Assembly: GCA_034231615.1 (NCBI GenBank)
Contig: CM067316.1
Coordinates: forward strand, 27,208,093-27,272,092
DNA: 64,000 bases
Reading direction: 5' to 3'
Source of the DNA: Meghimatium bilineatum
Taxonomy: Eukaryota > Mollusca > Gastropoda > Stylommatophora > Philomycidae
Made by a program: the position numbers and the translations under genes. Each line of letters begins with the position of its first letter. The first letter of the stretch is position 1. Shown one piece after another: positions 1,796 through 54,946 of the stretch. The notes beneath the pieces were generated by a model. It saw only the letters and a list, made by a program, of their open reading frames with translations, made no database searches and had not been told where the DNA came from.

Positions 1796-1955
1796 TTTTA
1801 TGTTATCTTTTTTTATGGTTCAGTGTTGATCTATAACATATGTTATCTTTTTTATGGTTCAGTGTTCATCTATAACATATGTTATCTTTTTTATGGTTCA
1901 GTGTTAATCTATAACATATATTGTCTTTTTTATGGCTCAGTGTTCATCTATAAAA
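1796..1955 (+). repeat. 39-bp tandem repeat at the 3' splice site of exon 2, four copies
   Basis: Four units with the core atcttttttatggttcagtg run directly into the acceptor of the next exon. The last unit carries tatggctcagtgttcatc and continues into the AG used for splicing. Each unit therefore contains a T-rich tract followed by CAG, so the acceptor region itself has been duplicated. Homogeneity is high, suggesting recent expansion. Confidence 0.85.
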
Positions 1956-1961
1956 GAACAG

Positions 1962-2075
1962 AAAACATCCGATAACAAGAAAAAGAAGAAAGGCTCAGTG
2001 GACGATGAAGAACCCGACATGGATGCAATGGATTGGTGGAGTAAATACTTTGCATCTGTAGAGACAATGATACGG
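1962..2075 (+). CDS. OTOF: Otoferlin-like exon: lysine run and DWWSKYFAS segment
   Basis: This exon encodes 38 residues: KTSDNKKKKKGSVDDEEPDM followed by DAMDWWSKYFASVETMIR. The KKKKKG run, acidic patch and DWWSKYFAS are hallmarks of the otoferlin linker between C2D and C2E; the function of the segment is not established. The donor GTAAGG follows CGG at 2076. The acceptor is taken as AACAG at 1957-1961 because it gives phase 0 and matches the preceding exon; an AG at 1955-1956 would start five bases earlier and shift the phase. Confidence 0.9.
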
Positions 2076-3314: not shown

Positions 3315-3990
3315 ATAGACCGATTTAATGGAAATAGCAAAGAAATAAAAGAAATACGACTATCTCCATCGATGATAAACACATTAAACAGGTAAATGAG
3401 TTCACTTACTTAGGAAGCATTATATCGAGTGAAGGGAAAACCAGTAAAGAGATACAAAATAGATGCAACAAAACACATCAGATGTTAGGACAGATGGCAC
3501 GTATTTTCAGGAACAAAAATGTAAACATAGACACTAAAGTTGCATTATACAAGATTATTATTATTCCATCACTATGCTACCAGTACCAAACCTAGACAAT
3601 GACAGCACAAGACTAAACAAAATAGTGACAGCAGAAATGACATTTTTCGAAGAATACTCGGAATGTCATTGAGAGATAAAATTAGAAACGATAACATCAG
3701 ACAGATAACTAAAACAATACCATTATTGGAACACATCAAACGACAACAGATCAAGTGGTTTTCACACGCTTCCAGACTATCAACAGATAGCATGCCACAA
3801 ATGGCCATTACACATAGATATAACGGTTATAAAGCCAGAGGCAGACCATGCAAAAGATGTATCACAGAAATCAAAGAAGCCGCAGGAACAATCTTACAAA
3901 CAGTACACAAGAAGGCCATCTCCAGAGAACTCTTCCACCCCTGACGCAAACAAGGACCACAGCGTATAGATAGATAGATAGATAGATAGA
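3315..3990 (+). mobile_element. LINE 3' fragment with (GATA)n tail
   Basis: The translation gives the C-terminal part of a non-LTR element: VNEFTYLGSIISSEGKTSKE, then MLGQMARIFRNKNVNIDTKV, IIIPSLCY, and in another frame IKRQQIKWFSHASRL and YKARGRPCKRCITEIKEAAG. The order YLGS, QIKWFGH-like and GRPRKRW-like is standard for RTE/Jockey-type C-termini. At least two frame changes are present. The copy ends in six GATA units at about 3966-3990, the presumed 3' tail. Confidence 0.7.
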
Positions 3991-4066
3991 TTAGTTCCAT
4001 TGGGGAAATATTAGATTCATAATGTTATTATTCGTTCCTTTAGGGAAATATCATTACATTAATAAT

Positions 4067-7600: not shown

Positions 7601-8108
7601 GGACACTCCAACACACCTGGCAATGACATGGTAGACAGACTAGCAAAGAAGGGAGCACAACAAGAACAACTGTATACACAAACAACCATGCACACAGTTA
7701 AAATTATGTTGAAATCTGTGAACAAAGAAAATTGGATAAACAGATGGGCCATGGGAAACACTGGGAGGGAAATCTATAAATATATGACCAGCCCAAATTC
7801 TAAAGACAATATCTACCTCCTGGGAAGGAAAGATCAGAGTATCATCTTCAGACTGCGCACACAACATGTACAGCTTAACAACCACCTGAACAGAATACAA
7901 CCACAATGAAACTGTTGACCACCACCTTTGTGAATGCCCAGCGCTGGATGACGTCAGGAAAATACTTCTCCCTGCAGGGCCAGATAAATGAAACACATTT
8001 TATGGAACTATACAACAGCTCACAAACACATGCATATATCACAAAATGGCATTGGGTCAAAGGGCATAAGCCCATGGACCAACCAACCAACCAACCAACC
8101 AACCAACC
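4632..8108 (+). mobile_element. LINE C, 5'-truncated, interrupted by a hAT element, (CCAA)n tail
   Basis: RT motifs read AYDGVWRKDLLMKMFVVGVS, LPQSSAISCTLFLIYINDL and ALYADDLTI (4740-4975), then LKRLTGTSWGSVKDIL, which stops at 5323. It resumes at 6733 with GLYLGYIRSALEYNSALLTT and NVESLDRVQNNALRLISGAM. A RNase H domain follows (CTDGSDFKATIKAGYGVYIE, ITALEIALYHM, FTDSMSALQALE). The end is an eightfold ACCA tail at about 8077-8108. This RT plus RNase H layout fits the I/Nimbus group. Several stops and frameshifts make it inactive. The 5' boundary falls near 4632. Confidence 0.85.
5324..6724 (-). mobile_element. hAT DNA transposon, internally deleted, inside LINE C
   Basis: Terminal inverted repeats of 16 bp (caggggtgggcaaact) and a perfect 8-bp target duplication ccttagag (5316-5323 and 6725-6732) define a 1401-bp hAT element. 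Minus-strand pieces are transposase C-terminal parts of the GTF2IRD2/ZBED-like Charlie type: SRVWDLKEEIVMFLEMKG, WKLDFIELNVKLQD, EFGRRFQDFKNLEQHFNVIS, and the dimerisation region FGSTYICEWAFSCLKINKSN near 5800-5890. The N-terminal zinc finger and catalytic start are missing. It splits an RT codon run, so it is younger than LINE C. Confidence 0.92.
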
Positions 8109-8255
8109 ACATCCATTCATTATCACATCCATTCATTACCACAACCATTCATTACCGCAACCATTCAGTGACACATCCATTCATTGCCATAACCATTCAT
8201 TGCCATAACAATTCATTGCCATAACCATTCATTACCATAACCATCCCTACTTCAA
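8109..8255. repeat. Minisatellite of about 15-17 bp (ccattcattaccataa)
   Basis: About nine imperfect units of the ccattcattaccacaa type follow directly after the (CCAA)n tail of LINE C. They probably grew from the LINE tail and its flank. Confidence 0.8.
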
Positions 8256-13329: not shown

Positions 13330-13363
<34 letters not shown>

Positions 13364-18384: not shown

Positions 18385-18535
18385 GAACACGGTCACAAAG
18401 ATGATGTATTTAATGTGGAGTTACTTCAAGCAGAGAGCAAGGTCACTAACACTATCGGAAACGATGACCATGTGCCACATCAGAGATCTCTGACAGGAGG
18501 ATATGGAACAATACCCAATATGGATGTAAACGATG
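18385..18535 (+). CDS. OTOF: Otoferlin-like exon: variable linker
   Basis: After the acceptor tttctgtaatcaacag an open frame reads EHGHKDDVFNVELLQAESKV, TNTIGNDDHVPHQRSLTGGY and GTIPNMDVND, ending one base into a codon at a GTAAAT donor (18536). Start phase 0 and end phase 1 fit the neighbouring exons. The acidic, low-conservation content suits the region between WWSKYFAS and the second lysine-rich stretch. The call rests on splice sites, phase and composition rather than residue identity. Confidence 0.65.
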
Positions 18536-18576
18536 GTAAATATTCGTGTTCTTCTTCAGCGTATACACTCATATTT

Positions 18577-18827
18577 CTGTCTCAGATTCCTGTCTCAGAT
18601 TCCTGTCTCAGATTCCTGTCACAGATTCCTGTCTCAGATTCCTGTCTCAGATTCCTGTCACAGATTCCTGTCTCAGATTCCTGTCTCAGATTCCTGTCTC
18701 AGATTCCTGTCTCAGATTTCTGCTTCAGATTTCTGTCTCAGATTCCTGTCTCAGATTCCTGTCTCAGATTCCTGTCTCAGATTCCTCTCTCAGATTCATG
18801 TTTCAGATTCATGTCTCAGATTCATGT
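18577..18827 (+). repeat. 13-bp tandem repeat (cctgtctcagatt), about 19 copies
   Basis: Starting about 40 bp after the donor of the 151-nt exon, cctgtctcagatt repeats with a few variants. All three frames stay open and give the same peptide period (SDSCLRFLSQIPV), as expected for a 13-bp unit. Each unit has a short pyrimidine run followed by CAG and so resembles a 3' splice site. Confidence 0.92.
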
Positions 18828-25683: not shown

Positions 25684-25850
25684 AAATTGAAATAAAACAA
25701 GCAAAAAGATTTGAAAAAGAGTCCAGAAAAATGGCAGAAAAAGAGAAAACAATGAAGACAGGTGTCAAGGTTTCAGGACTGTCCAAGCAACTCTCACCAA
25801 AAACACAACGAAAGAAAGAAAAACTCCTCAGCAACACATCACAACTCAAG
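25684..25850 (+). CDS. OTOF: Otoferlin-like exon: second lysine-rich linker
   Basis: After tttatttctacag the exon completes a split codon and reads EIEIKQAKRFEKESRKMAEK, then EKTMKTGVKVSGLSKQLSPK and TQRKKEKLLSNTSQLK, ending at a GTAGGC donor. It enters in phase 1 and ends in phase 0. Vertebrate otoferlin has a comparable charged stretch (KGKEKARAAKEEKKKK) that ends in LK just before VYP, as here. The segment is probably a charged helix; its role is unknown. A long 18-bp array starts ten bases into the intron. Confidence 0.85.
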
Positions 25851-25860
25851 GTAGGCGGTC

Positions 25861-28800
25861 ACTAACTCATCACATCACACTAACTCATCACATCACACTA
25901 ACTCATCACATCACACTAACTCATCACATCACACTAACTCATCACATCACACTAACTCAACATATCACATCACACTAACTCATCACATCACACTAACTCA
26001 TCACATCACACTAACTCATCACATCACACTAACTCATCACATCACACTAACTCATCACATCACACTAACTCATCACATCACACTAACTCATCACATCACA
26101 CTAACTCATCACATCACACTAACTCATCACATCACACTAACTCATCACATCACACTAACTCATCACATCACACTAACTCAACATATCACATCACACTAAC
26201 TCATCACATCACACTAACTCATCACATCACACTAACTCATCACATCACACTAACTCATCACATCACACTAACTCATCACATCACACTAACTCATCACATC
26301 ACACTAACTCATCACATCACACTAACTCATCACATCACACTAACTCATCACATCACACTAACTCATCACATCACACTAACTCATCACATCACACTAACTC
26401 ATCACATCACACTAACTCATCACATCACACTAACTCATCACATCACACTAACTCATCACATCACACTAACTCATCACTTCACACTAACTCATCACATCAC
26501 ACTAACTCATCACATCACACTAACTCATCACATCACACTAACTCATCACATCACACTAACTCATCACATCACACTAACTCATCACATCACACTAACTCAT
26601 CACATCACACTAACTCATCACATCACACTAACTCATCACATCACACTAACTCATCACATCACACTAACTCATCACATCACACTAACTCATCACATCACAC
26701 TAACTCTTCACTTCACACTAACTCATCACATCACACTAACTCATCACATCACACTAACTCATCACATCACACTAACTCATCACATCACACTAACTCATCA
26801 CATCACACTAACTCATCACATCACACTAACTCATCACATCACACTAACTCATCACATCACACTAACTCATCACATCACACTAACTCATCACATCACACTA
26901 ACTCATCACATCACACTAACTCATCACTTCACACTAACTCAGCACATCACACTAACTCATCACATCACACTAACTCAACATATCACATCACACTAACTCA
27001 TCACATCACACTAACTCATCACATCACACTAACTCATCACATCACACTAACTCATCACATCACACTAACTCATCACATCACACTAACTCATCACATCACA
27101 CTAACTCATCACATCACACTAACTCATCACATCACACTAACTCATCACATCACACTAACTCAACATATCACATCACACTAACATATCACATCACACTAAC
27201 TCATCACATCACACTAACTCATCACATCACACTAACATATCACATCACACTAACATATCACATCACACTAACTCATCACATCACACTAACTCAACATATC
27301 ACATCACACTAACATATCACATCACACTAACTCATCACATCACACTAACATATCACATCACACTAACTCATCACATCACACTAACTCATCACATCACACT
27401 AACTCAACATATCACATCACACTAACATATCACATCACACTAACTCATCACATCACACTAACTCATCACATCACACTAACTCATCACATCACACTAACTC
27501 ATCACATCACACTAACTCATCACATCACACTAACTCATCACATCACACTAACTCATCACATCACACTAACTCAACATATCACATCACACTAACTCATCAC
27601 ATCACACTAACTCATCACATCACACTAACTCATCACATCACACTAACTCAACATATCACATCACACTAACTCAACATATCACATCACACTAACTCAACAT
27701 ATCACATCACACTAACTCAACATATCACATCACACTAACTCAACATATCACATCACACTAACTCAACATATCACATCACACTAACTCAACATATCACATC
27801 ACACTAACTCAACATATCACATCACACTAACTCAACATATCACATCACACTAACTCATCACATCACACTAACTCATCACATCACACTAACTCATCACATC
27901 ACACTAACTCATCACATCACACTAACTCATCACATCACACTAACTCAACATATCACATCACACTAACTCATCACATCACACTAACATATCACATCACACT
28001 AACTCATCACATCACACTAACTCATCACATCACACTAACTCATCACATCACACTAACTCATCACATCACACTAACTCATCACATCACACTAACTCATCAC
28101 ATCACACTAACTCATCACATCACACTAACCCATCACATCACACTAACTCATCACATCACACTAACTCATCACATCACACTAACTCATCACTTCACACTAA
28201 CTCATCACATCACACTAACTCATCACATCACACTAACTCAACATATCACATCACACTAACTCATCACATCACACTAACTCATCACATCACACTAACTCAT
28301 CACATCACACTAACTCATCACATCACACTAACTCAACATATCACATCACACTAACTCATCACATCACACTAACTCATCACATCACACTAACTCATCACAT
28401 CACACTAACTCAACATATCACACTAACTCATCACATCACACTAACTCATCACTTCACACTAACTCAACATATCACATCACACTAACTCATCACATCACAC
28501 TAACTCATCACATCACACTAACTCATCACATCACACTAACTCAACATATCACACTAACTCATCACATCACACTAACTCATCACATCACACCAACTCATCA
28601 CATCACACTAACTCATCACATCACACTAACTCATCACATCACACTAACTCATCACATCACACTAACTCATCACATCACACTAACTCATCACATCACACTA
28701 ACTCATCACATCACACTAACTCAACATATCACATCACACTAACTCAACATATCACATCACACTAACTCAACATATCACATCACACTAACTCAACATATCA

Positions 28801-30123
28801 CATCACACTAACTCAACATATCACATCACACTAACTCAACATATCACATCACACTAACTCAACATATCACATCACACTAACTCAACATATCACATCACAC
28901 TAACTCAACATATCACATCAGACTAACTCATCACATCACACTAACTCATCACATCACACTAACTCATCACATCACACTAACTCATCACATCACACTAACT
29001 CATCACATCACACTAACTCATCACATCACACTAACTCATCACATCACACTAACTCATCACATCACACTAACTCATCACATCACACTAACTCATCACATCA
29101 CACTAACTCAACACATCACACTAACTCATCACATCACACTAACTCATCACATCACACTAACTCATCACATCACACTAACTCATCACATCACACTAACTCA
29201 TCACATCACACTAACTCATCACATCACACTAACTCAACATATCACATCACACTAACTCAACATATCACATCACACTAACTCAACATATCACATCACACTA
29301 ACTCAACATATCACATCACACTAACTCAACATATCACATCACACTAACTCAACATATCACATCACACTAACTCAACATATCACATCACACTAACTCAACA
29401 TATCACATCACACTAACTCATCACATCACACTAACTCATCACATCACACTAACTCATCACATCACACTAACTCATCACATCACACTAACTCATCACATCA
29501 CACTAACTCATCACATCACACTAACATATCACATCACACTAACTCATCACATCACACTAACTCATCACATCACACTAACTCATCACATCACACTAACTCA
29601 TCACATCACACTAACTCATCACATCACACTAACTCATCACATCACACTAACTCATCACATCACACTAACTCATCACATCACACTAACTCATCACATCACA
29701 CTAACTCATCACATCACACTAACTCATCACATCACACTAACTCATCACATCACACTAACTCATCACATCACACTAACTCATCACATCACACTAACTCATC
29801 ACATCACACTAACTCATCACATCACACTAACTCATCACTTCACACTAACTCATCACATCACACTAACTCATCACATCACACTAACTCAACATATCACATC
29901 ACACTAACTCATCACATCACACTAACTCATCACATCACACTAACTCATCACATCACACTAACTCATCACATCACACTAACTCAACATATCACATCACACT
30001 AACTCATCACATCACACTAACTCATCACATCACACTAACTCATCACATCACACTAACTCAACATATCACATCACACTAACTCAACATATCACATCACACT
30101 AACTCAACATATCACATCACAAG
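25861..30123. repeat. 18-bp satellite-like array, 4.3 kb, roughly 230 units
   Basis: The basic unit actaactcatcacatcac repeats from ten bases after the donor. A 22-bp variant containing aactcaacatatcacatc is interspersed and forms homogeneous runs at about 27640-27840, 28720-28920 and 29225-29405, showing local expansion of sub-blocks. Rare one-base variants (cttcac, cagact) recur in several places. At the right end acatcacaaggtaaactgtc mirrors the exon end and donor at the left end. No frame is meaningful. Confidence 0.97.
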
Positions 30124-30640
30124 GTAAACTGTCAGTAACTCAAAACATTACAGCTCACGTTAACAGTCAGAAACTCAACGCACTACAACTTTAAAAAATT
30201 TGGAAAGGGATTGTTTGTTTGAAAAAACTTTAACCTTTTTATAAAGAAATGGCTTGTTTGAAAGAACTTTAACACTTTTTAGAAAGAAATGGCTTGTTTG
30301 AAAGAACTTTAAAACCTTTCTGCTGTTGAAAACATGCATTTTTATTTATAGCATACAAAAAGATACCTGTGTTAGAAAGAAGTGGCCTATCTGGGCCAAA
30401 ACTTGTATTGCCCCCTAAATTATTTCACAAACGTGACAAGAAACTGTATCACCAGGTCTCTATTCTGTTATGGACACATGTTAAATTCTCAAATCTAAAT
30501 ATTTGACGTAGTTATTTCCCCTTAATCATTATTTAACTTAGCAGTGTCCAGCCGGCCATCGCATTTGTCTCATTTTAACAAAATACTTGTCAACATTGAA
30601 ATGTTTACTGACAAGGGCCCTAATCTGTAGTATCTTGGTG
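30124..30640. other. Intron with a 45-bp repeat, about three copies
   Basis: At about 30205-30320 gaaatggcttgtttgaaaga plus actttaacactttttaga recurs about three times. The remainder shows no recognisable feature. Confidence 0.6.
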
Positions 30641-32275: not shown

Positions 32276-32410
32276 GTGTACCCTAATGAGCTGGAAAGTC
32301 AAGCACAGTTTGAGGGATTCAGGGACTGGTTGCATACGTTCGAACTCTATAGGGGCAAGAATATGGGAAACGATGAACCAGATGAGAACAGGATCGTTGG
32401 CAAGTTTAAG
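32276..32410 (+). CDS. OTOF: Otoferlin-like exon: VYPNELE / DWLHTF segment
   Basis: Forty-five residues: [45 protein letters not shown]. Vertebrate otoferlin has VYPKELE...FEDWLHTFNLLRGK...RIVGRFKGS at the same place, directly before C2E. The exon starts in phase 0 after tatatttacag. Its end is set at FK because the next exon begins GSMKIY and the human protein reads FKGS. That makes the donor AAG|GCAGGT, a GC-type 5' splice site. Using the GT two bases further on would break the frame. Confidence 0.93.
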
Positions 32411-32950
32411 GCAGGTTCTGATACCTTGGTTGATTGGACTCATTGTTTGTTTTCTGACATATTTTGTGTGTGACCCTTAACAATTATGGTTTGTGTGTAC
32501 TCTTGTTGTTTCTAAATTAAATTTGTACATGTGTTTCTCTAAAACTCCATACAGTCCAACTTCCAGACTATGCTTCGAAAGATTCAAAACTGCCAGTATC
32601 CGTAGGATTTTATGAAATCTATTTCACTCCTACTATGTATATATCTACTGTGCTAGAAATGAGGGCGCTTGCAGTAATGCGAATTCAGGACTGTATCCAC
32701 GGCACCCACGTGGAATATTTTGGACGTTATATCGTCGTGCAATCGGACTTTTTGTTTAATTGACCACAAGTGACAAACATGTATTCCACGAAATTACTGC
32801 AAGATTTTTATGTAATATGAGTTTCATACGTAATGAAGTGACATACATGTCACATCATCTGTGGGCAACCTATGTTAATATCAGGCCTGATTGATCATTT
32901 ATAGTGTGGTTTGTGGGTAAACAAATGTTTTCCAAATTACTTTTTTGTAA
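32411..32950. other. Start of a GC-AG intron; no recognised gene
   Basis: The intron begins GCAGGT and ends ttgatccag at 34529. Its first 540 bp are AT-rich with no feature I can support. Confidence 0.6.
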
Positions 32951-34215: not shown

Positions 34216-34529
34216 AGTTATGGTATTATTTATTATAATGCTGTTGTTTTTTTACACATTTTTGATGAGTATGTGTACTGCGCCGAGGCATAGGTATGTG
34301 TCATCAGCAAATCATGGGAATCATCATCGTACCTTGCATTATCTGTTGGGGATTCATCATCGTACCCTGCGCAAGGAGCTCTGAGGGTCTTTCTAATATG
34401 CTATAATTAGTATTAACCAATGACCTATTTTTGCGGGAAGTAACACCCCTATAGAAGAGGTTAATAAATTTATGTGTGACTTACAAAACTAAAATAGTTC
34501 TTCTTAACTTCCTGTTATCATTGATCCAG

Positions 34530-34673
34530 GGATCAATGAAGATATACAGAATTCCTTTGCCTCCTGATATTGAAGACTGTACCATCACTGGAGGAGACCC
34601 AGCTTATGGACTTTTTCAAGGGCTACCTAGCAATGAACCAGTCAAGGTTCTAGTTCGTGTATATGTAGTCAGG
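34530..34673 (+). CDS. OTOF: Otoferlin-like exon: start of the C2E domain
   Basis: Forty-eight residues: GSMKIYRIPLPPDIEDCTIT, GGDPAYGLFQGLPSNEPVKV, LVRVYVVR. The last block is the first beta strand of the C2E domain, as in vertebrate otoferlin (YGMFQGIPSN...VLVRVYVVRATDLHPAD). The acceptor is ttgatccag; the donor is AGG|GTAAGA at 34674. Phase is 0 at both ends. The last 24 coding bases plus the donor form the unit of the tandem array that follows. Confidence 0.95.
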
Positions 34674-36088
34674 GTAAGACACTTGTCTAGTTCGTGTATA
34701 TGTAGTCAGGGTAAGACACTTGTCTAGTTCGTGTATATGTAGTCAGGGTAAAACACTTGTCTAGTTCGTGTATATGTAGTCAGGGTAAGACACTTGTCTA
34801 GTTCGTGTATATGTAGTCAGGGTAAGACACTTGTCTAGTTCGTGTATATGTAGTCAGGGTAAGACACTTGTCTAGTTCGTGTATATGTAGTCAGGGTAAG
34901 ACACTTGTCTAGTTCGTGTATATGTAGTCAGGGTAAGACACTTGTCTAGTTCGTGTATATGTAGTCAGGGTAAGACACTTGTTTAGTTCGTGTATATGTA
35001 GTCAGGGTAAGACACTTGTTTAGTTCGTGTATATGTAGTCAGGGTAAGACACTTGTTTAGTTCGTGTATATGTAGTCAGGGTAAGACACTTGTCTAGTTC
35101 GTGTATATGTAGTCAGGGTAAGACACTTGTTTAGTTCGTGTATATGTAGTCAGGGTAAGACACTTGTCTAGTTCGTGTATATGTAGTCAGGGTAAGACAC
35201 TTGTTTAGTTCGTGTATATGTAGTCAGGGTAAGACACTTGTTTAGTTCGTGTATATGTAGTCAGGGAAAGACACTTGTTTAGTTCGTGTATATGTAGTCA
35301 GGGTATGACACTTGTCTAGTTCGTGTATATGTAGTCAGGGTAAGACACTTGTCTAGTTCGTGTATATGTAGTCAGGGTAAGACACTTGTCTAGTTCGTGT
35401 ATATGTAGTCAGGGTATGACACTTGTCTAGTTCGTGTATATGTAGTCAGGGTAAGACACTTGTCTAGTTCGTGTATATGTAGTCAGGGTAAGACACTTGT
35501 CTAGTTCGTGTATATGTAGTCAGGGAAAGACACTTGTCTAGTTCGTGTATATGTAGTCAGGGTAAGACACTTGTTTAGTTCGTGTATATGTAGTCAGGGT
35601 AAGACACTTGTCTAGTTCGTGTATATGTAGTCAGGGAAAGACACTTGTTTAGTTCGTGTATATGTAGTCAGGGTAAGACACTTGTCTAGTTCGTGTATAT
35701 GTAGTCAGGGTAAGACACTTGTCTAGTTCGTGTATATGTAGTCAGGGTAAGACACTTGTCTAATTCGTGTATATGTAGTCAGGGTAAGACACTTGTCTAG
35801 TTCGTGTATATGTAGTCAGGGTAAGACACTTGTCTAGTTCGTGTATATGTAGTCAGGGTAAGACACTTGTCTAGTTCGTGTATATGTAGTCAGGGTAAGA
35901 CACTTGTCTAGTTCGTGTATATGTAGTCAGGGTAAGACACTTGTCTAGCTCGTGTATATGTAGTCAGGGTAAGACACTTGTCTAGTTCGTGTATATGTAG
36001 TCAGGGTAAGACACTTGTCTAGTTCGTGTATATGTAGTCAGGGTAAGACACTTGTCTAGTTCGTGTATATGTAGTCAGGGTAAGACAA
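34650..36088 (+). repeat. 37-bp array made of the exon end plus its 5' splice site, about 39 copies
   Basis: The first unit overlaps the end of the exon. Each unit contains tagttcgtgtatatgtagtc followed by agggtaagacacttgtc, so every copy holds the last 24 coding bases and the AGG|GTAAGA donor. Variants are few (cttgtt, gggaaag, gggtatg, taattcg, tagctcg) and some cluster, showing local copying. A few copies have a changed donor (GGAAAG, GGTATG). The unit is 37 bp, so use of a downstream copy by one unit would shift the frame. Confidence 0.97.
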
Positions 36089-36234
36089 TTGTTTATTACA
36101 TAACTTAGATGTCGCCGTTTGTGCCAGGCTTATATTCTGTGGTTAAGTTATTTGTCATGTCTCCACGAGATCACCTTGCACGTGACCATGACGTCTTTTT
36201 TATACGTGTATTTTATCTTATACTTCATACTTCA

Positions 36235-41344: not shown

Positions 41345-43108
41345 GTTAGTTAGTCGTCGGATCATCATCACTGCAAACTGGACACATCCATAGTTGCTCC
41401 GATCTCTCCTTGAGTGTATCCGCCATCACACTTCTGCTGACAGTACCGGTCCTATGCTGGTTGACCATCATTCTTCTGCGCCCTCCAAAATGTTCACATC
41501 TAGCAACACCGCATTTCAATCCCTGATCTTTAATCCTAGCCATTGAAAAGGAATCATCATCCACATTAGTCTCACTCTCGCGTGTTATATCTCTTAAGGA
41601 GTTCAAAACGTCAGCGCGATCCATTGCCCCATCGCCCTTTGCCACAATCGCACACGATGCCAGTTGATCCGCTCTTTCATTGCCTCGAACACCCACATGT
41701 CCCGGCACGAAAATAAATGTAACCGCTTTCAACCTCGCATTTTTCAAGGCCTCAATCCACTGTTCGCGAACGAGACCCACTTGTACCTTCTTAATCATAC
41801 TCATAGAGTCACTCAAGATGCAGACCTGCGTTACTTTCTGTGTGCGTAGCCACTCAAATGCCTTGGTCACCGCCATAGTCTCCATGGTCATACTACTCGT
41901 AGTGACCGCAAAGGCACCACTTTCCTCCTTGATCGTTTTACCTGCGCACTGAGCTGTAAAGGCCCAAGCACTGCGAACATGCCTAATTACAGATCCATCA
42001 GTGTATATAATCACATCCCCCTCTTTGGTATTCTCACTGATTAAAGCCTGCACTTCTTTCTCCACAGCTGTGGGACACCATTCTCTGCATTCCCTGCTAA
42101 GTGATATTACTACTCTCAAACAAGTTTCGAAATCTGTGGGTAGACCTATCCATTCCGCACCAGCTGCCACATCCTGTAATCGGCACACGCTTTGTATTAC
42201 ATCCTCAGCACGTCCCATCCACGACCTTCCTCTCTTGAGTCTGCTGCCTTTAACTTTCTGTATTTCGGAATGCAACGGGTGTTCCTTATCTGCATGTATT
42301 TGAAGGTACGCCCGTGCACGGCAATACTGTAATCTATGCTCAGTTGTTGGGCAGTCAAGTAGGTATCGCATAGCTCTTGTCGATGTGTCTCTTGTGCATC
42401 CCAGAATGATACGCATTGCTGCATTCTGGACTCTATCCAGTCTTTCGATCTGAGTTTGGCTAAGAGTCAGAATTGCCAGTGCATATTCCACCACAGCCAC
42501 AACCAAACCCTGGTACAAAAGAAATAACAATCTTTGCTCACACTGCGCAGCAGCCATAACCTTCATTGCTGCTAAGCCTTTGCCTGCCCTTATGATAATG
42601 TGGTCAACATGTTCCCTGAAACTCAACGCTTCTGTCAAAAAACACACCCAGATATCTCATTGTGCTAGTTCTTTCTAAACTTTTCCCGGACAACGAAACT
42701 TGTGGCATGGGTGTCTTTACCATGTGATTGTTCAAGGAAAACCACGTCACGAATGCCTTAGACGGATTAACCACTGCTCCCGTATCTCGACACCAATTTG
42801 TCAGTCTGTCCAGCTCCTTCTGTAGTTCCACGACGCACTCTTCTCGATTTCTGCCCTGTCTATACACCAGGATATCATCGGCATATGACATCGTTCTGCC
42901 AACACCTGTGATTTGATTGCCAGCGATATGTATTGTGTATACATTGAAAAGTACAGGAGATAGAGGCGATCCCTGTGGCAGGCCAGGGCTAATAACCGTT
43001 GGTGTAGATATGCAGTTACCACACTTAAGAACTACAACCCTGTGCATCAGGGCGGCGCCAACCCAACGCACGACAAAAGGATTAACTGCAAGATTTAACA
43101 GCTGGTGC
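41345..43108 (-). mobile_element. LINE B copy 2, 5'-truncated, young
   Basis: The minus strand has two long frames. The first runs from MHQLLNLAVNPFVVRWVGAA to YLGVFFDRS (RT: ISPGLPQGSPLSPVLFNVYT, MSYADDILVYR). The second has 433 codons: RT thumb (QIERLDRVQNAAMRIILGCT), RNase H (VIIYTDGSVIRHVRSAWAFT, ILSDSMSMIKK, VPGHVGVRGNERADQLASCA) and a C-terminal CPVC end. A single frameshift near 42605-42650 separates them. The 14-bp duplication atgtgattattata (41331-41344, 43109-43122) flanks the copy. The tail is two TAAC units. Confidence 0.93.
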
Positions 43109-43147: not shown

Positions 43148-44300
<1,153 letters not shown>

Positions 44301-44301
44301 T

Positions 44302-44817
44302 GGTAATGTGATATACCCCGAAGGAATATAAATAAGAGCTTTATAATAACAGAACATAGATCAATATTCACAGTTGAAATAGTAGCCATATTAAAAGCAC
44401 TAGAAATAATAACTGATAACCGGCTTCTTAAAAATGTAATAATCCTGAATCGAGTCATTATCATTAGTCCAGACTATACAAACTAAATATGGTAGCCAAA
44501 GACTAAGCATGGTGTAAACTTTATATCTTACAACAAACGTATATCACATTGTGTGCCGAAGTTTAATGTAGTGTGGGTTCCTGCACATATCAGTATATAT
44601 GTATTAGGAAATGAGGCAAGGAACAACGTATCAAAGAAAGGGCGTCAGCGCAGAATTGAGATCAATGTAGGACTTGGCAGGTCTGAAATCAGGAGCATAA
44701 TATAGGACCCAAAAAGGTATTGAGAAAAAAGTAAACTACTAAAGGAGTGCACAGAGAAATGGAACATCAGTGTAAAACAAACCTAGAATAAAGTCATTAC
44801 AGATTTTATTTAATCTC

Positions 44818-44895
<78 letters not shown>

Positions 44896-47252: not shown

Positions 47253-50200
47253 CATGTATTCTTCGCTTCCCGTTCTTAGTTCTCTTCAACTACTGCTTCA
47301 CGTTCTCATTTCTCTTCAACTACTGCTTCTCGTTCTCAGTTCTCTTCAACTACTGCTTCACGTTCTCAGTTCTCTTCAACTACTGCTTCACGTTCTCAGT
47401 TCTCTTCAACTACTGCTTCACGTTCTCAGTTCTCTTCAACTACTGCTTCTCGTTCCCAGCTCTTCAACTACTGCTTCTCGTTCTCTGTTCTTCAACTACT
47501 GCTTCTCGTTCTCATTTCTCTTCAACTACTGCTTCTCGTTCTCAGTTCTTCAACTACTGCTTCTCGTTCTCATTTCTCTTCAACTACTGCTTCTCGTTCT
47601 CAGTTCTTCAACTACTGCTTCTCGTTCTCATTTCTCTTCAACTACTGCTTCTTGTTCTTAGTTCTCTTCAACTACTTCTTCTCGTTCTTAGTTCTCTTCA
47701 ACTACTGATTCTCGTTATTAGTTCTCTTCAACTACTGCTTCTCGTTCTCAGTTCTTCAACTACTAATTCTCGTTATTAGTAATCTTCAACTAATGCTTCT
47801 CGTTCTTAGTTCTTCAAATACTGCTTCTCGTTCTCAGCTCTTCAACTACTGCTTCTCGTTCTCAGTTCTCTTCAACTACTGCTTCTCGTTCTCAGTTCTC
47901 TTCAACTACTGCTTCACGTTCTTAGTTCTCTTCAACTATTGCTTCTCGTTCTCAGCTCTTCAACTACTGCTTCTCGTTCTCAGTTCTTCAACTACTGCTT
48001 CTCGTTCTCAGCTCTTCAACTAATGCTTCTCGTTCTCAGCTCTTCAACTACTGCTTCTCGTTCTCAGCTCTTCAACTACTGCTTCTCGTTCTCAGCTCTT
48101 CAACTACTGCTTCTCGTTCTCAGCTCTTCATCTACTGCTTCTCGTTCTCAGTTCTCTTCAACTACTGCTTCTCGTTCTCAGTTCTCTTCAACTACTGCTT
48201 CACGTTCTTAGTTCTCTTCAACTATTGCTTCTCGTTCTCAGCTCTTCAACTACTGCTTCTCGTTCTCAGCTCTTCAACTACTGCTTCTCGTTCTCAGCTC
48301 TTCAACTAATGCTTCTCGTTCTTAGTTCTTCAACTACTGCTTCTCGTTCTCCGTTCTCTTTAACTACTGCTTCTCGTTCTCAGCTCTTCAACTACTGCTT
48401 CTCGTTCTCAGTTCTCTTCAACTACTGCTTCTCGTTCTCAGTTCTCTTCAACTACTGCTTCTCGTTCTCAGTTCTCTTCAACTACTGCTTCTCGTTCTCA
48501 GTTCTCTTCAACTACTGCTTCACGTTCTTAGTTCTCTTCAACTATTGCTTCTCGTTCTCAGCTCTTCAACTACTACTTCTCGTTCTCAGCTCTTCAACTA
48601 CTGCTTCTCGTTCTCAGCTCTTCATCTACTGCTTCTCGTTCTCAGCTCTTCAACTACTACTTCTCGTTCTCAGCTCTTCAACTACTGCTTCTCGTTCTCA
48701 GCTCTTCAACTACTGCTTCTCGTTCTCAGCTCTTCAACTACTGCTTCTCGTTCTCAGTTCTCTTCAACTACTGCTTCTCGTTCTCAGTTCTCTTCAACTA
48801 CTGCTTCACGTTCTTAGTTCTCTTCAACTATTGCTTCTCGTTCTCAGCTCTTCAACTACTACTTCTCGTTCTCAGCTCTTCAACTACTGCTTCTCGTTCT
48901 CAGCTCTTCATCTACTGCTTCTCGTTCTCAGCTCTTCAACTACTACTTCTCGTTCTCAGCTCTTCATCTACTGCTTCTCGTTCTCAGCTCTTCAACTACT
49001 GCTTCTCGTTCTCAGCTCTTCATCTACTGCTTCTCGTTCTCAGCTCTTCAACTAATGCTTCTCGTTCTTAGTTCTTCAACTACTGCTTCTCGTTCTCCGT
49101 TCTCTTTAACTACTGCTTCTCGTTCTCAGCTCTTCAACTACTGCTTCTCATTATTAGTTCCTCAACTACTGCTTCTCGTTATTAGTTCTTCAGCTACAGC
49201 TTCTCGTTATTAGTTCTCTTCAACTACTGCTTCTTCATTCTAAGCTCTTCAACAACTGCTTCTCATTCTCAGCTCTTCAACTACTGCTTCTCGTTCTCAG
49301 CTCTACAACTACTGCTTCTCGTTCTCAGTTCTTCAACTACTGCTTCACTTTCTTAGAACTCTTCAACTACTGCTTCTCGTTCTCAGCTCTACAACTACTG
49401 CTTCTCGTTCTCAGCTCTTCAACTACTGATTCTCGTTCTCAGTTCTTCAACTACTGCTTCTCGTTCTCATTTCTCTTCAACTACTGCTTCTCGTTCTCAG
49501 TGCTCTTCAACTACTGCTTCTCGTTCTCAGTTCTTCAACTACTGCTTCTCGTTCCCAGCTCTTCAACTACTGCTTCTCGTTCTCAGTTCTTCAACTACTG
49601 CTTCTCGTTCTCATTTCTCTTCAACTACTGCTTCTCGTTCTCAGTTCTTCAACTACTGCTTCTCGTTCTCATTTCTCTTCAACTACTGCTTCTCGTTCTC
49701 AGTACTTCAACTACTGCTTCTCGTTCTCAGTTCTTCAACTACTGCTTCTCGTTCTCAGTTCTTCAACTACTGCTTCTCGTTCTCAGTTCTTCAACTACTG
49801 CTTCTCGTTCTCAGTTCTTCAACTACTGCTTCTCGTTCTCATTTCTCTTCAACTACTGCTTCTCGTTCTCATTTCTCTTCAACTACTGCTTCTCGTTCTC
49901 AGTTCTTCAACTACTGCTTCTCGTTCTCAGTTCTTCAACTACTGCTTCTCGTTCTCATTTCTCTTCAACTACTGCTTCTCGTTCTCAGTTCTTCAACTAC
50001 TGCTTCTCGTTCTAATTTCTCTTCAACTACTGCTTCTCGTTCTCAGTTCTTCAACTACTGCTTCTCGTTCTCAGTTCTTCAACTACTGCTTCTCGTTCCC
50101 AGTTCTTCAACTACTGCTTCTTGTTCTTAGTTCTCTTCAACTACTTCTTCTCGTTCTTAGTTCTCTTCAACTACTGATTCTCGTTATTAGTTCTCTTCAA

Positions 50201-53200
50201 CTACTGCTTCTCGTTCTCAGTTCTTCAACTACTAATTCTCGTTATTAGTAATCTTCAACTAATGCTTCTCGTTCTTAGTTCTTCAAATACTGCTTCTCGT
50301 TCTCAGCTCTTCAACTACTGCTTCTCGTTCTCAGTTCTCTTCAACTACTGCTTCTCGTTCTCAGTTCTCTTCAACTACTGCTTCACGTTCTTAGTTCTCT
50401 TCAACTACTACTTCTCGTTCTCAGCTCTTCAACTACTACTTCTCGTTCTCAGCTCTTCAACTACTGCTTCTCGTTCTCAGCTCTTCATCTACTGCTTCTC
50501 GTTCTCAGCTCTTTAACTAATGCTTCTCGTTCTTAGTTCTTCAACTACTGCTTCTCGTTCTCCGTTCTCTTTAACTACTGCTTCTCGTTCTCAGCTCTTC
50601 AACTACTGCTTCTCGTTCTCAGCTCTTCATCTACTGCTTCTCGTTCTCAGCTCTTTAACTAATGCTTCTCGTTCTTAGTTCTTCAACTACTGCTTCTCGT
50701 TCTCCGTTCTCTTTAACTACTGCTTCTCGTTCTCAGCTCTTCAACTACTGCTTCTCATTATTAGTTCCTCAACTACTGCTTCTCGTTATTAGTTCTTCAG
50801 CTACTGCTTCTCGTTATTAGTTCTCTTCAACTACTGCTTCTTCATTCTCAGCTCTTCAACAACTGCTTCTCATTCTCAGTTCTTCAACTACTGCTTCACT
50901 TTCTTAGAACTCTTCAACTACTGCTTCTCATTCTCAGCTCTTCAACAACTGCTTCTCATTCTCAGTTCTTCAACTACTGCTTCACTTTCTTAGAACTCTT
51001 CAACTACTGCTTCTCGTACTCAGCTCTTCAACTACTGCTTCTCGTACTCAGCTCTTCAACTACTGCTTCTCGTTCTCAGTTCTCTTCATCTACTGCTTCT
51101 CGTACTCAGCTCTTCACCTACCGCTTCTCGTTCTCAGCTCTTCAACTACTGCTTCTCGTTCTCAGTTCTTCAACTACTGCTTCTCGTTATCAGCTCTTTA
51201 ACGACTGCTTCTCGTTCTTTGTTCTTCAAATACTGCTTCTCGTTCTCAGTTCTTCAACTACTTCTTCTCGTTCTCAGTTCTTCAACTACTGCTTCTCGTT
51301 CTTAGTTCTCTTCAACTACTGCTTTTCGTTCTCAGTTCTCTTCAACTGCTGCTTCTCGTTCTTAGTTCTCTTCAACTACAGCTTCTCGTTCTTAGTTCTC
51401 TTCAAGTACTGCTTCTCGTTCTTAGTTCTCTTCAACTACTGCTTCTTGTTCTTAGTTCTCTTCAACTACTGCTTCTCGTTCTCAGTTCTTCAACTACTGC
51501 TTCTCGTTCTCAGCTCTTCAACTAATGCTTCTCGTTCTTAGTTCTCTTCAACTACTGCTTCTCGTTCTTAGTTCTCTTAAACTACTGCTTCTCGTTATTA
51601 GTTCTCTTCAACTACTGCTTCTCATTCTCAGCTCTTCAACTACTGCTTCTCATTCTTCAACTACTGCTTCACGTTCTTAGTACTCTTCAACTACTGCTTC
51701 TCGTTCTCAGCTCTTCACCTACTGCTTCTCGTTCTCAGCTCTTGAACTACTGCTTCTCGTTCTCAGCTCTTCAACTACTGCTTCTCTTTCTCAGCTCTTC
51801 AACTACTGATTCTCGTTCTCAGTTCTTCAACTACTGCTTCTCGTACTCAGCTCTTCAACTACTGCTTCTCGTTCTCAGCTCTTCACCTACCGCTTCTCGT
51901 TCTCAGCTCTTCAACTACTGTTTCTCGTTCTTAGTTCTATTCAACTACTGCTTTTCGTTCTCAGTTCTCTTCAACTGCTGCTTCTCGTTCTTAGTTCTCT
52001 TCAACTACAGCTTCTCGTTCTTAGTTCTCTTCAAGTACTGCTTCTCGTTCTTAGTTCTCTTCAACTACTGCTTCTCGTTCTTAGTTCTCTTCAACTACTG
52101 CTTCTCGTTCTCAGTTCTTCAACTACTGCTTCTCGTTCTCAGCTCTTCAACTAATGCTTCTCGTTCTTAGTTCTCTTCAACTACTGCTTCTCGTTCTTAG
52201 TTCTCTTAAACTACTGCTTCTCGTTCTCATTTCTCTTCAACTACTGCTTCTCGTTCTCAGTTCTTCAACTACTGCTTCTCGTTCTCATTTCTCTTCAACT
52301 ACTGCTTCTCGTTCTCAGTTCTTCAACTACTGCTTCTCGTTCTCAGTTCTTCAACTACTGCTTCTCGTTCTCAGTTCTTCAACTACTGCTTCTCGTTCTC
52401 AGTTCTTCAACTACTGCTTCTCGTTCTCAGTTCTTCAACTACTGCTTCTCGTTCTCATTTCTCTTCAACTACTGCTTCTCGTTCTCAGTTCTTCAACTAC
52501 TGCTTCTCGTTCTCAGTTCTTCAACTACTGCTTCTCGTTCTCATTTCTCTTCAACTACTGCTTCTCGTTCTCAGTTCTTCAACTACTGCTTCTCGTTCTA
52601 ATTTCTCTTCAACTACTGCTTCTCGTTCTCAGTTCTTCAACTACTGCTTCTCGTTCTCAGTTCTTCAACTACTGCTTCTCGTTCCCAGTTCTTCAACTAC
52701 TGCTTCTTGTTCTTAGTTCTCTTCAACTACTTCTTCTCGTTCTTAGTTCTCTTCAACTACTGATTCTCGTTATTAGTTCTCTTCAACTACTGCTTCTCGT
52801 TCTCAGTTCTTCAACTACTAATTCTCGTTATTAGTAATCTTCAACTAATGCTTCTCGTTCTTAGTTCTTCAAATACTGCTTCTCGTTCTCAGCTCTTCAA
52901 CTACTGCTTCTCGTTCTCAGTTCTCTTCAACTACTGCTTCTCGTTCTCAGTTCTCTTCAACTACTGCTTCACGTTCTTAGTTCTCTTCAACTACTACTTC
53001 TCGTTCTCAGCTCTTCAACTACTACTTCTCGTTCTCAGCTCTTCAACTACTGCTTCTCGTTCTCAGCTCTTCATCTACTGCTTCTCGTTCTCAGCTCTTT
53101 AACTAATGCTTCTCGTTCTTAGTTCTTCAACTACTGCTTCTCGTTCTCCGTTCTCTTTAACTACTGCTTCTCGTTCTCAGCTCTTCAACTACTGCTTCTC

Positions 53201-54946
53201 GTTCTCAGCTCTTCATCTACTGCTTCTCGTTCTCAGCTCTTTAACTAATGCTTCTCGTTCTTAGTTCTTCAACTACTGCTTCTCGTTCTCCGTTCTCTTT
53301 AACTACTGCTTCTCGTTCTCAGCTCTTCAACTACTGCTTCTCATTATTAGTTCCTCAACTACTGCTTCTCGTTATTAGTTCTTCAGCTACTGCTTCTCGT
53401 TATTAGTTCTCTTCAACTACTGCTTCTTCATTCTCAGCTCTTCAACAACTGCTTCTCATTCTCAGTTCTTCAACTACTGCTTCACTTTCTTAGAACTCTT
53501 CAACTACTGCTTCTCATTCTCAGCTCTTCAACAACTGCTTCTCATTCTCAGTTCTTCAACTACTGCTTCACTTTCTTAGAACTCTTCAACTACTGCTTCT
53601 CGTACTCAGCTCTTCAACTACTGCTTCTCGTACTCAGCTCTTCAACTACTGCTTCTCGTTCTCAGTTCTCTTCATCTACTGCTTCTCGTACTCAGCTCTT
53701 CACCTACCGCTTCTCGTTCTCAGCTCTTCAACTACTGCTTCTCGTTCTCAGTTCTTCAACTACTGCTTCTCGTTATCAGCTCTTTAACGACTGCTTCTCG
53801 TTCTTTGTTCTTCAAATACTGCTTCTCGTTCTCAGTTCTTCAACTACTTCTTCTCGTTCTCAGTTCTTCAACTACTGCTTCTCGTTCTTAGTTCTCTTCA
53901 ACTACTGCTTTTCGTTCTCAGTTCTCTTCAACTGCTGCTTCTCGTTCTTAGTTCTCTTCAACTACAGCTTCTCGTTCTTAGTTCTCTTCAAGTACTGCTT
54001 CTCGTTCTTAGTTCTCTTCAACTACTGCTTCTTGTTCTTAGTTCTCTTCAACTACTGCTTCTCGTTCTCAGTTCTTCAACTACTGCTTCTCGTTCTCAGC
54101 TCTTCAACTAATGCTTCTCGTTCTTAGTTCTCTTCAACTACTGCTTCTCGTTCTTAGTTCTCTTAAACTACTGCTTCTCGTTATTAGTTCTCTTCAACTA
54201 CTGCTTCTCATTCTCAGCTCTTCAACTACTGCTTCTCATTCTTCAACTACTGCTTCACGTTCTTAGTACTCTTCAACTACTGCTTCTCGTTCTCAGCTCT
54301 TCACCTACTGCTTCTCGTTCTCAGCTCTTGAACTACTGCTTCTCGTTCTCAGCTCTTCAACTACTGCTTCTCTTTCTCAGCTCTTCAACTACTGATTCTC
54401 GTTCTCAGTTCTTCAACTACTGCTTCTCGTACTCAGCTCTTCAACTACTGCTTCTCGTTCTCAGCTCTTCACCTACCGCTTCTCGTTCTCAGCTCTTCAA
54501 CTACTGTTTCTCGTTCTTAGTTCTATTCAACTACTGCTTTTCGTTCTCAGTTCTCTTCAACTGCTGCTTCTCGTTCTTAGTTCTCTTCAACTACAGCTTC
54601 TCGTTCTTAGTTCTCTTCAAGTACTGCTTCTCGTTCTTAGTTCTCTTCAACTACTGCTTCTCGTTCTTAGTTCTCTTCAACTACTGCTTCTCGTTCTCAG
54701 TTCTTCAACTACTGCTTCTCGTTCTCAGCTCTTCAACTAATGCTTCTCGTTCTTAGTTCTCTTCAACTACTGCTTCTCGTTCTTAGTTCTCTTAAACTAC
54801 TGCTTCTCGTTCTCAGTTCTTCAACTACTGCTTCTCGTTCTCAGCTCTTCAACTACTGCTTCTCGTTCTCAGTTCTCTTTAACTACTACTTCTCGTTCTT
54901 AGTTCTCTTCAACTACTGCTTCTCGTTATCAGCTCTTCAACTACTG
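47253..54946 (+). repeat. 7.7-kb pyrimidine-rich array of 28/30-bp units, about 265 copies
   Basis: Two interleaved unit types, cttcaactactgcttctcgt plus tctcagtt (28 bp) and the same with an extra ct (30 bp), fill the segment. Variant blocks (attctcgttattag, gcttcactttcttagaac, gcttcttcattc) recur in the same order in places, revealing higher-order copies. Long + strand open frames (up to 276 codons, LLLVLSSSTTASRS periods) are products of the repeat. Most units contain a pyrimidine tract ending in CAG or TAG. Confidence 0.97.
49600..54805 (+). repeat. Higher-order tandem duplication of about 2,586 bp
   Basis: Blocks at 49600-52220 and 52220-54805 are near identical. Identical 84-codon frames start at 50262 and 52848, and identical 142-codon frames at 51742 and 54328, both with an offset of 2,586 bp. 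The order of rare variants is the same in both copies, so the duplication is recent. An assembly artefact cannot be excluded. Confidence 0.92.

Follow-up and report, generated by a model that had tools for sequence, protein, structure and literature searches.

The repeat unit of the minisatellite in the human IFI6 gene is 12 bp long, and Turri et al. reportedly described this minisatellite, with its multiple splice donor sites, in 1995. Published accounts of the gene, which is also named 6-16 or G1P3, state that the minisatellite supplies multiple splice donor sites (PMC4526556, PMC2572611) and that two downstream repeats are used as donors, leading to three mRNAs (PMC4526556). Internal tandem repeats have also been reported for human segmental duplications. 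They are minisatellites of about 30 bp, some of them located at exon-intron boundaries, they comprise approximately four units on average, and the report associates them with alternative splicing and also with putative new introns (PMC2812944). In amphioxus, minisatellite-like tandem duplications over exon-intron boundaries have been termed mirages. They were described for Adh3 and for the globins BflGb6 and BflGb9 (PMC3087553), and troponin C and PGBD5 have been added as further examples (PMC3902484). The units of the Adh3 mirages, a feature of amphioxus, are given as 10-72 bp long. According to the same report, the copy number of mirages is unstable, and the duplications were proposed to be a route to new introns, while the Adh3 data and RT-PCR on the globins suggest that regular splicing is left undisturbed (PMC3087553). 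Mirages may also vary in length between haplotypes or somatically. The arrays of the otoferlin gene analyzed here have the anatomy of mirages and are in this respect members of a class already published. Like the mirages described, they contain either 5′ or 3′ splice sites, and many but not all of the copies retain the AG or GT signals, as can be seen in arrays D and E. Array D, with 39 copies, is larger than the mirage of the globin BflGb6, for which one haplotype has 6 copies and the other 3, and the otoferlin gene carries four arrays at six of its exons. In the literature searched, mostly without subscription papers, mirages under that name were not found outside lancelets. Minisatellites in earthworm introns (PMC12783039) and work on U1 and SRSF1 (PMC8724738) were considered but not taken as precedents.

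The window, i.e. the whole stretch of 64,000 nucleotides that was analyzed, contains six exons (Table 1), which were mapped with an otoferlin probe, together with splice sites and phase. The basis for exon A2 is an open frame, splice sites and phase, with no homology support. Exons A, A2, B, C, D and E join to one open frame for a 286-residue peptide, which in a comparison with solved structures gave 211.8 bits for otoferlin, 105.4 bits for dysferlin and 101.6 bits for myoferlin. For this joining, position 43984 was used as the end of exon E, and position 43985 in the array-boundary tests described below. A partial C2 domain was detected by Pfam in the otoferlin exons (E 5.9e-08); exon D leads into the C2 domain that the original prediction called C2E. 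Judged by sequence similarity, the gene is otoferlin, as it resembles this ferlin more than the others. The introns inside the window have lengths of 16.3, 7.1, 6.4, 2.1 and 9.2 kb. Since a convincing match to the part of the probe beyond exon E was not found in the window, the intron following this exon is probably longer than 20 kb.

Table 1. Positions of the otoferlin exons and of the arrays at their splice sites within the window (a slash marks the exon-intron junction)
Feature	Position	Strand	Size	Remarks
Exon A (DWWSKYFAS region)	1941..2075	+	135 bp	otoferlin
Exon A2	18385..18535	+	151 bp	phase 0 in, 1 out, fits A and B
Exon B (linker)	25684..25850	+	167 bp	otoferlin; donor CTCAAG/GTAGGC
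Exon C	32276..32410	+	135 bp	otoferlin; apparent GC donor AAG/GCAGGT
Exon D	34530..34673	+	144 bp	otoferlin; phase 0 in and out
Exon E	43858..43985	+	128 bp	otoferlin; donor AA/GTAAGT
Array A	1799..1953	+	3.9 x 39 bp	repeat of 3′ splice site
Array B	25860..30116	+	233 x 18 bp, 4.2 kb	starts 9 bp past exon B donor
Array D	34649..36091	+	39 x 37 bp	first unit coincides with the end of exon D
Array E	43968..44302	+	about 13 x 25 bp	68-70% class by TRF, more diverged

Some further properties of the region were noticed. The apparent GC donor of exon C (32405-32416) is the sole non-GT donor among the six exons; the arrays closest to this exon are 1.7 and 2.0 kb distant. By eye, the acceptor of exon D was seen to lie within a short perfect inverted repeat (ATTGATCC-AG-GGATCAAT, 34520-34537) across the intron-exon junction. 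The minus strand of the intron between exons D and E contains an open frame of 436 residues (41346-42656) with an RNase H domain (E 4.6e-14), which is probably the remnant of a retroelement. A Pfam match to MG280 was below the threshold (16.6 bits, cut-off 27.4) and was taken as chance, two further open frames gave no Pfam family, and searches with Rfam and for tRNAs yielded 0 matches.

For the donor of exon D, an approximately 39-fold tandem array of 37 bp carrying the exon end and the donor had been predicted. This array is real. TRF reported it at 34649-36092 with a period of 37, 39.0 copies, 98% matches and 0% indels, and by direct parsing 39 anchors were obtained, whose spacing was exactly 37 bp in 38 of 38 cases. 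The predicted unit length was thereby recovered. Each unit corresponds to the last 25 bp of exon D followed by 12 bases of the intron, GTAAGACACTTG; the original division into 24 coding and 13 intronic bases describes this unit in a form rotated by one base. A 25-base core is matched 39 times in the window if up to 3 mismatches are allowed, compared to 0 matches in 100 shuffles. Ten distinct sequences occur among the units, the commonest of which accounts for 23 of the 39, and the mean pairwise difference is 2.2%. The donors had been described as nearly identical; 33 of the 39 are indeed the same as the true donor AGG/GTAAGA, but not all of them are intact, since GT is retained in 36 copies only. 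The deviant donors contain GA (3/39), GTATGA (2/39) or GTAAAA (1/39). The copy number of a tandem array is open to mis-assembly, and one of the amphioxus mirages was, according to its report, apparently aberrantly assembled in the draft (PMC3087553). Hence, the true array might be shorter and might have been inflated by the assembler. This explanation is hardly credible, as the ten unit types are interspersed along the array and an artefact at exon D would leave unexplained arrays E, A and B, which have the same anatomy but other degrees of divergence.

The original prediction was also correct in that an exon end was amplified together with its donor, but its picture of a single event in the gene was incomplete, since four of the six exons are affected. 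The boundaries concerned are the donors of exons B, D and E and the acceptor of exon A. In arrays D, E and A, the tandem unit overlaps the exon-intron boundary. Array E starts inside exon E, of which it covers the last 18 bp, and takes in the donor of this exon; among its nine anchored copies, with the true one counted, the motif GTAAGTA is kept in two. Array A is composed of units comprising a pyrimidine tract, TCAG and the first exon bases, and there are four copies including the true one, which was taken to be the last. The acceptor of exon A was placed by the pyrimidine tract within this last repeat unit, and this placement, made partly via a tract inside the repeat, counts against the explanation favored below. 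Alternative AG acceptors would shift the start of the exon by 16 or 21 bp downstream, where it would still lie at most 10 bp from the end of the array. Array B is organized differently, as it is flanked by the exon-intron boundary on one side and by a copy of it on the other. This copy, which comprises the end of exon B and the donor (CAAG/GTAAAC, GT at 30124), is situated just beyond the end of the array as determined by TRF. The exon B end, donor and intron start can be aligned with the far-end copy over 48 bp without gaps, and the donor region alone scored above 500 of 500 shuffles, although the shuffle control took 49 of the 55 bases used in the real comparison. The amplified 18-bp unit itself has no donor inside. 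These similarities show that arrays E, B and A each derive from their own neighboring splice site, namely donor E, donor B and acceptor A.

The association of arrays and boundaries was analyzed in two ways. Firstly, each of 23 arrays was scored against each of 12 boundaries, the boundary itself being masked by 25 bp on either side. Short-period arrays (3966-3991, 8078-8109, 13331-13361 and 44820-44893) were excluded, the array at 47265-54946 was entered with its first 1500 bp only, and array B was represented by 600 bases from its start and 700 from its end, after this end had been shifted from 30116 to 30160, the site of the boundary copy. Among the 276 comparisons, the four highest scores were obtained when arrays D, A, E and B were each paired with the boundary next to them (70, 61, 42 and 33), while the maxima of 100 shuffles each were 20, 26, 25 and 20, respectively, in tests made per pair and uncorrected for the 276 comparisons. 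The fifth pair, consisting of the array at 43186-43500 and the non-adjacent acceptor of exon C, reached a score of 32 (shuffle maximum 23). Thus, the score of array B is not decisive by itself, and the case for this array is carried by its adjacency and the 48-bp alignment, which point to an origin at donor B. Secondly, four of the 12 boundaries were found at a distance of at most 10 bp from an array, compared to 0.28 expected, and in random placements at least four such boundaries occurred in 4 of 20,000 trials. In this placement test, which was devised after the pattern had been seen, 27 TRF intervals were merged to 26 and the six exons were placed outside the arrays in such a way that the exon cores (30 bp trimmed per end) were kept off them.

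Two other tandem repeats of the window contain motifs resembling acceptors. At 18568-18827, 20 copies of the 13-bp sequence CTCAGATTCCTGT were found, whose consensus includes an acceptor-like TCAG. This array begins 32 bp past the donor of exon A2, does not include the donor and is not among the 14 best array-boundary pairs. The array at 47265-54946 is a very long 28-bp minisatellite of 267 copies, T- and C-rich on the plus strand, with an acceptor-like TTCTCAG in its consensus unit; an exon was not found nearby. The repeats at 43186-43500 and 43732-43787 apparently belong to a single 28-bp array, which is interrupted by about 230 bp and ends 70 bp before exon E.

It had been asked whether binding of U1 snRNP along array D matters. 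An array of donors at the start of a long intron could recruit many U1 snRNPs and in this way strengthen exon D or suppress premature polyadenylation (telescripting). For the donor common to most copies, a U1 pairing of -8.9 kcal/mol was predicted, and the arrays of the donor type are located at the start of the introns behind exons B (6.4 kb), D (9.2 kb) and E (probably more than 20 kb). However, the donors do not seem to be protected. By hand count, 3 of the 9 donor positions of the array D unit are variable, compared to 4 of the 28 positions elsewhere (Fisher p 0.33, low power), so that the donor positions are at least as variable as the others and no constraint indicating selection on the copied donors was visible. 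In addition, most copied donors have decayed in array E or dropped out in array B, and the extra sites therefore look dispensable. Exon A precedes an intron of 16.3 kb, yet the nearest array is at least 1.8 kb away from its donor. A functional platform for U1 is thus very unlikely, and the idea that U1 binding along the array matters found no support.

The use of any donor other than the first would have consequences for the reading frame. Donor 2 of array D adds 37 bases and leads to a stop in exon E, while for positions 3 to 39 a stop is encountered within the array, in the third unit, even if the number of added bases is divisible by three. The outcome was computed for 10 of the 39 positions and deduced for the others; positions 4 to 39 must stop as well because they include the stop-bearing prefix of position 3. 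Only position 1 leaves the frame open. The original expectation that most choices shift the frame was therefore correct but understated, since all 38 other positions, the in-frame ones among them, result in a premature stop. The three upstream acceptor copies of exon A are in frame with this exon, yet each of them meets a stop, so that in both arrays only the exon-adjacent copy yields the full frame. Like the IFI6 minisatellite, array D offers several 5′ splice sites after one exon. By contrast, its downstream donors would not give rise to additional translatable isoforms as reported for IFI6 (PMC4526556). One could imagine that donors 2 to 39 act as regulated poison donors, which direct the transcript into nonsense-mediated decay and thereby tune the output of otoferlin, all the more so as every alternative position leads to a premature stop and IFI6 demonstrates that repeat donors are usable. 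On the other hand, a stop is the ordinary result of adding non-coding sequence, and published data on exon definition predict the use of donor 1. We regard such a regulatory role as highly improbable.

As to the question of how the correct donor is chosen, a published default is available. In an exon-definition context, the upstream one of two identical 5′ splice sites was reported to be used exclusively in five minigenes, and in exons between long introns the sites nearest across the exon are favored (PMC9225289). The introns flanking exon D (2.1 and 9.2 kb) are far above the 250-nt limit of that study; hence, exon definition predicts donor 1 well. By contrast, the classical rule of Reed and Maniatis, as recounted in the same study, prefers the donor nearest across the intron and would predict donor 39. 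The minigenes contained two donors, not 39, and stronger ones (CAG/guaagu), and genome-wide the preference for the upstream donor in human is reported to be milder, with 60% over all comparable pairs (PMC9225289). In human DOK7, the intron-proximal donor was described as the preferred one, being the stronger there (PMC5585400). For 3′ splice sites, exon definition is stated to only weaken the upstream preference (PMC9225289), and the use of the last acceptor of exon A is therefore less firmly predicted. A selection of donor 1 by RNA structure was considered as well. One 171-nt stretch exceeded 200 of 200 shuffles in folding (z -3.44), and the predicted accessibility of donor 1 was the highest of all 39 donors at a window setting of 150/100. 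Its rank varied from 1 to 16 over ten settings, and with a shuffled left flank, 35 of 40 trials still gave an accessibility higher than the interior median. This candidate was rejected since the effect is not robust and in part an edge effect.

Taken together, it is very probable that array D is a mirage-type minisatellite, which is tolerated because the exon-adjacent copy is still used. A short tandem duplication over the boundary of exon D and its intron may have been amplified via slippage or unequal exchange. Exon D would be recognized through exon definition, its acceptor being paired with the nearest donor, and the remaining donors would end up inside the intron and be spliced away. The same process may have struck the donors of exons E and B and the acceptor of exon A, and the extra copies would then be largely neutral.

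The arrays of the gene form a series from D, which is little diverged, to E with decayed donors and B with a unit lacking a donor, and this series suggests a route by which such sites are lost. While the choice between identical sites was tested with two-site minigenes in the published study (PMC9225289), the otoferlin gene offers 39 donor positions, 33 of them identical, behind exon D and four acceptors in tandem ahead of exon A. As only the exon-adjacent copy is open in frame, the gene amounts to a strong natural test of the rule that proximity across the exon decides. Should the host not be a lancelet, mirages occur more widely than the literature searched indicates; introns as long as those of this gene would be uncommon in a lancelet, although this is a weak indication. 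The finding also makes a case for a genome-wide scan for repeats born at splice sites. Tentatively, and with considerable doubt, splice sites might be general birthplaces of minisatellites in this lineage, with exon boundaries being repeatedly duplicated throughout the genome, possibly beyond lancelets. If this were true, array D would be a 39-fold natural test of site choice across the exon, and the genome would steadily be furnished with surplus donors and acceptors, a potential source of new introns and of shifts in splice sites.
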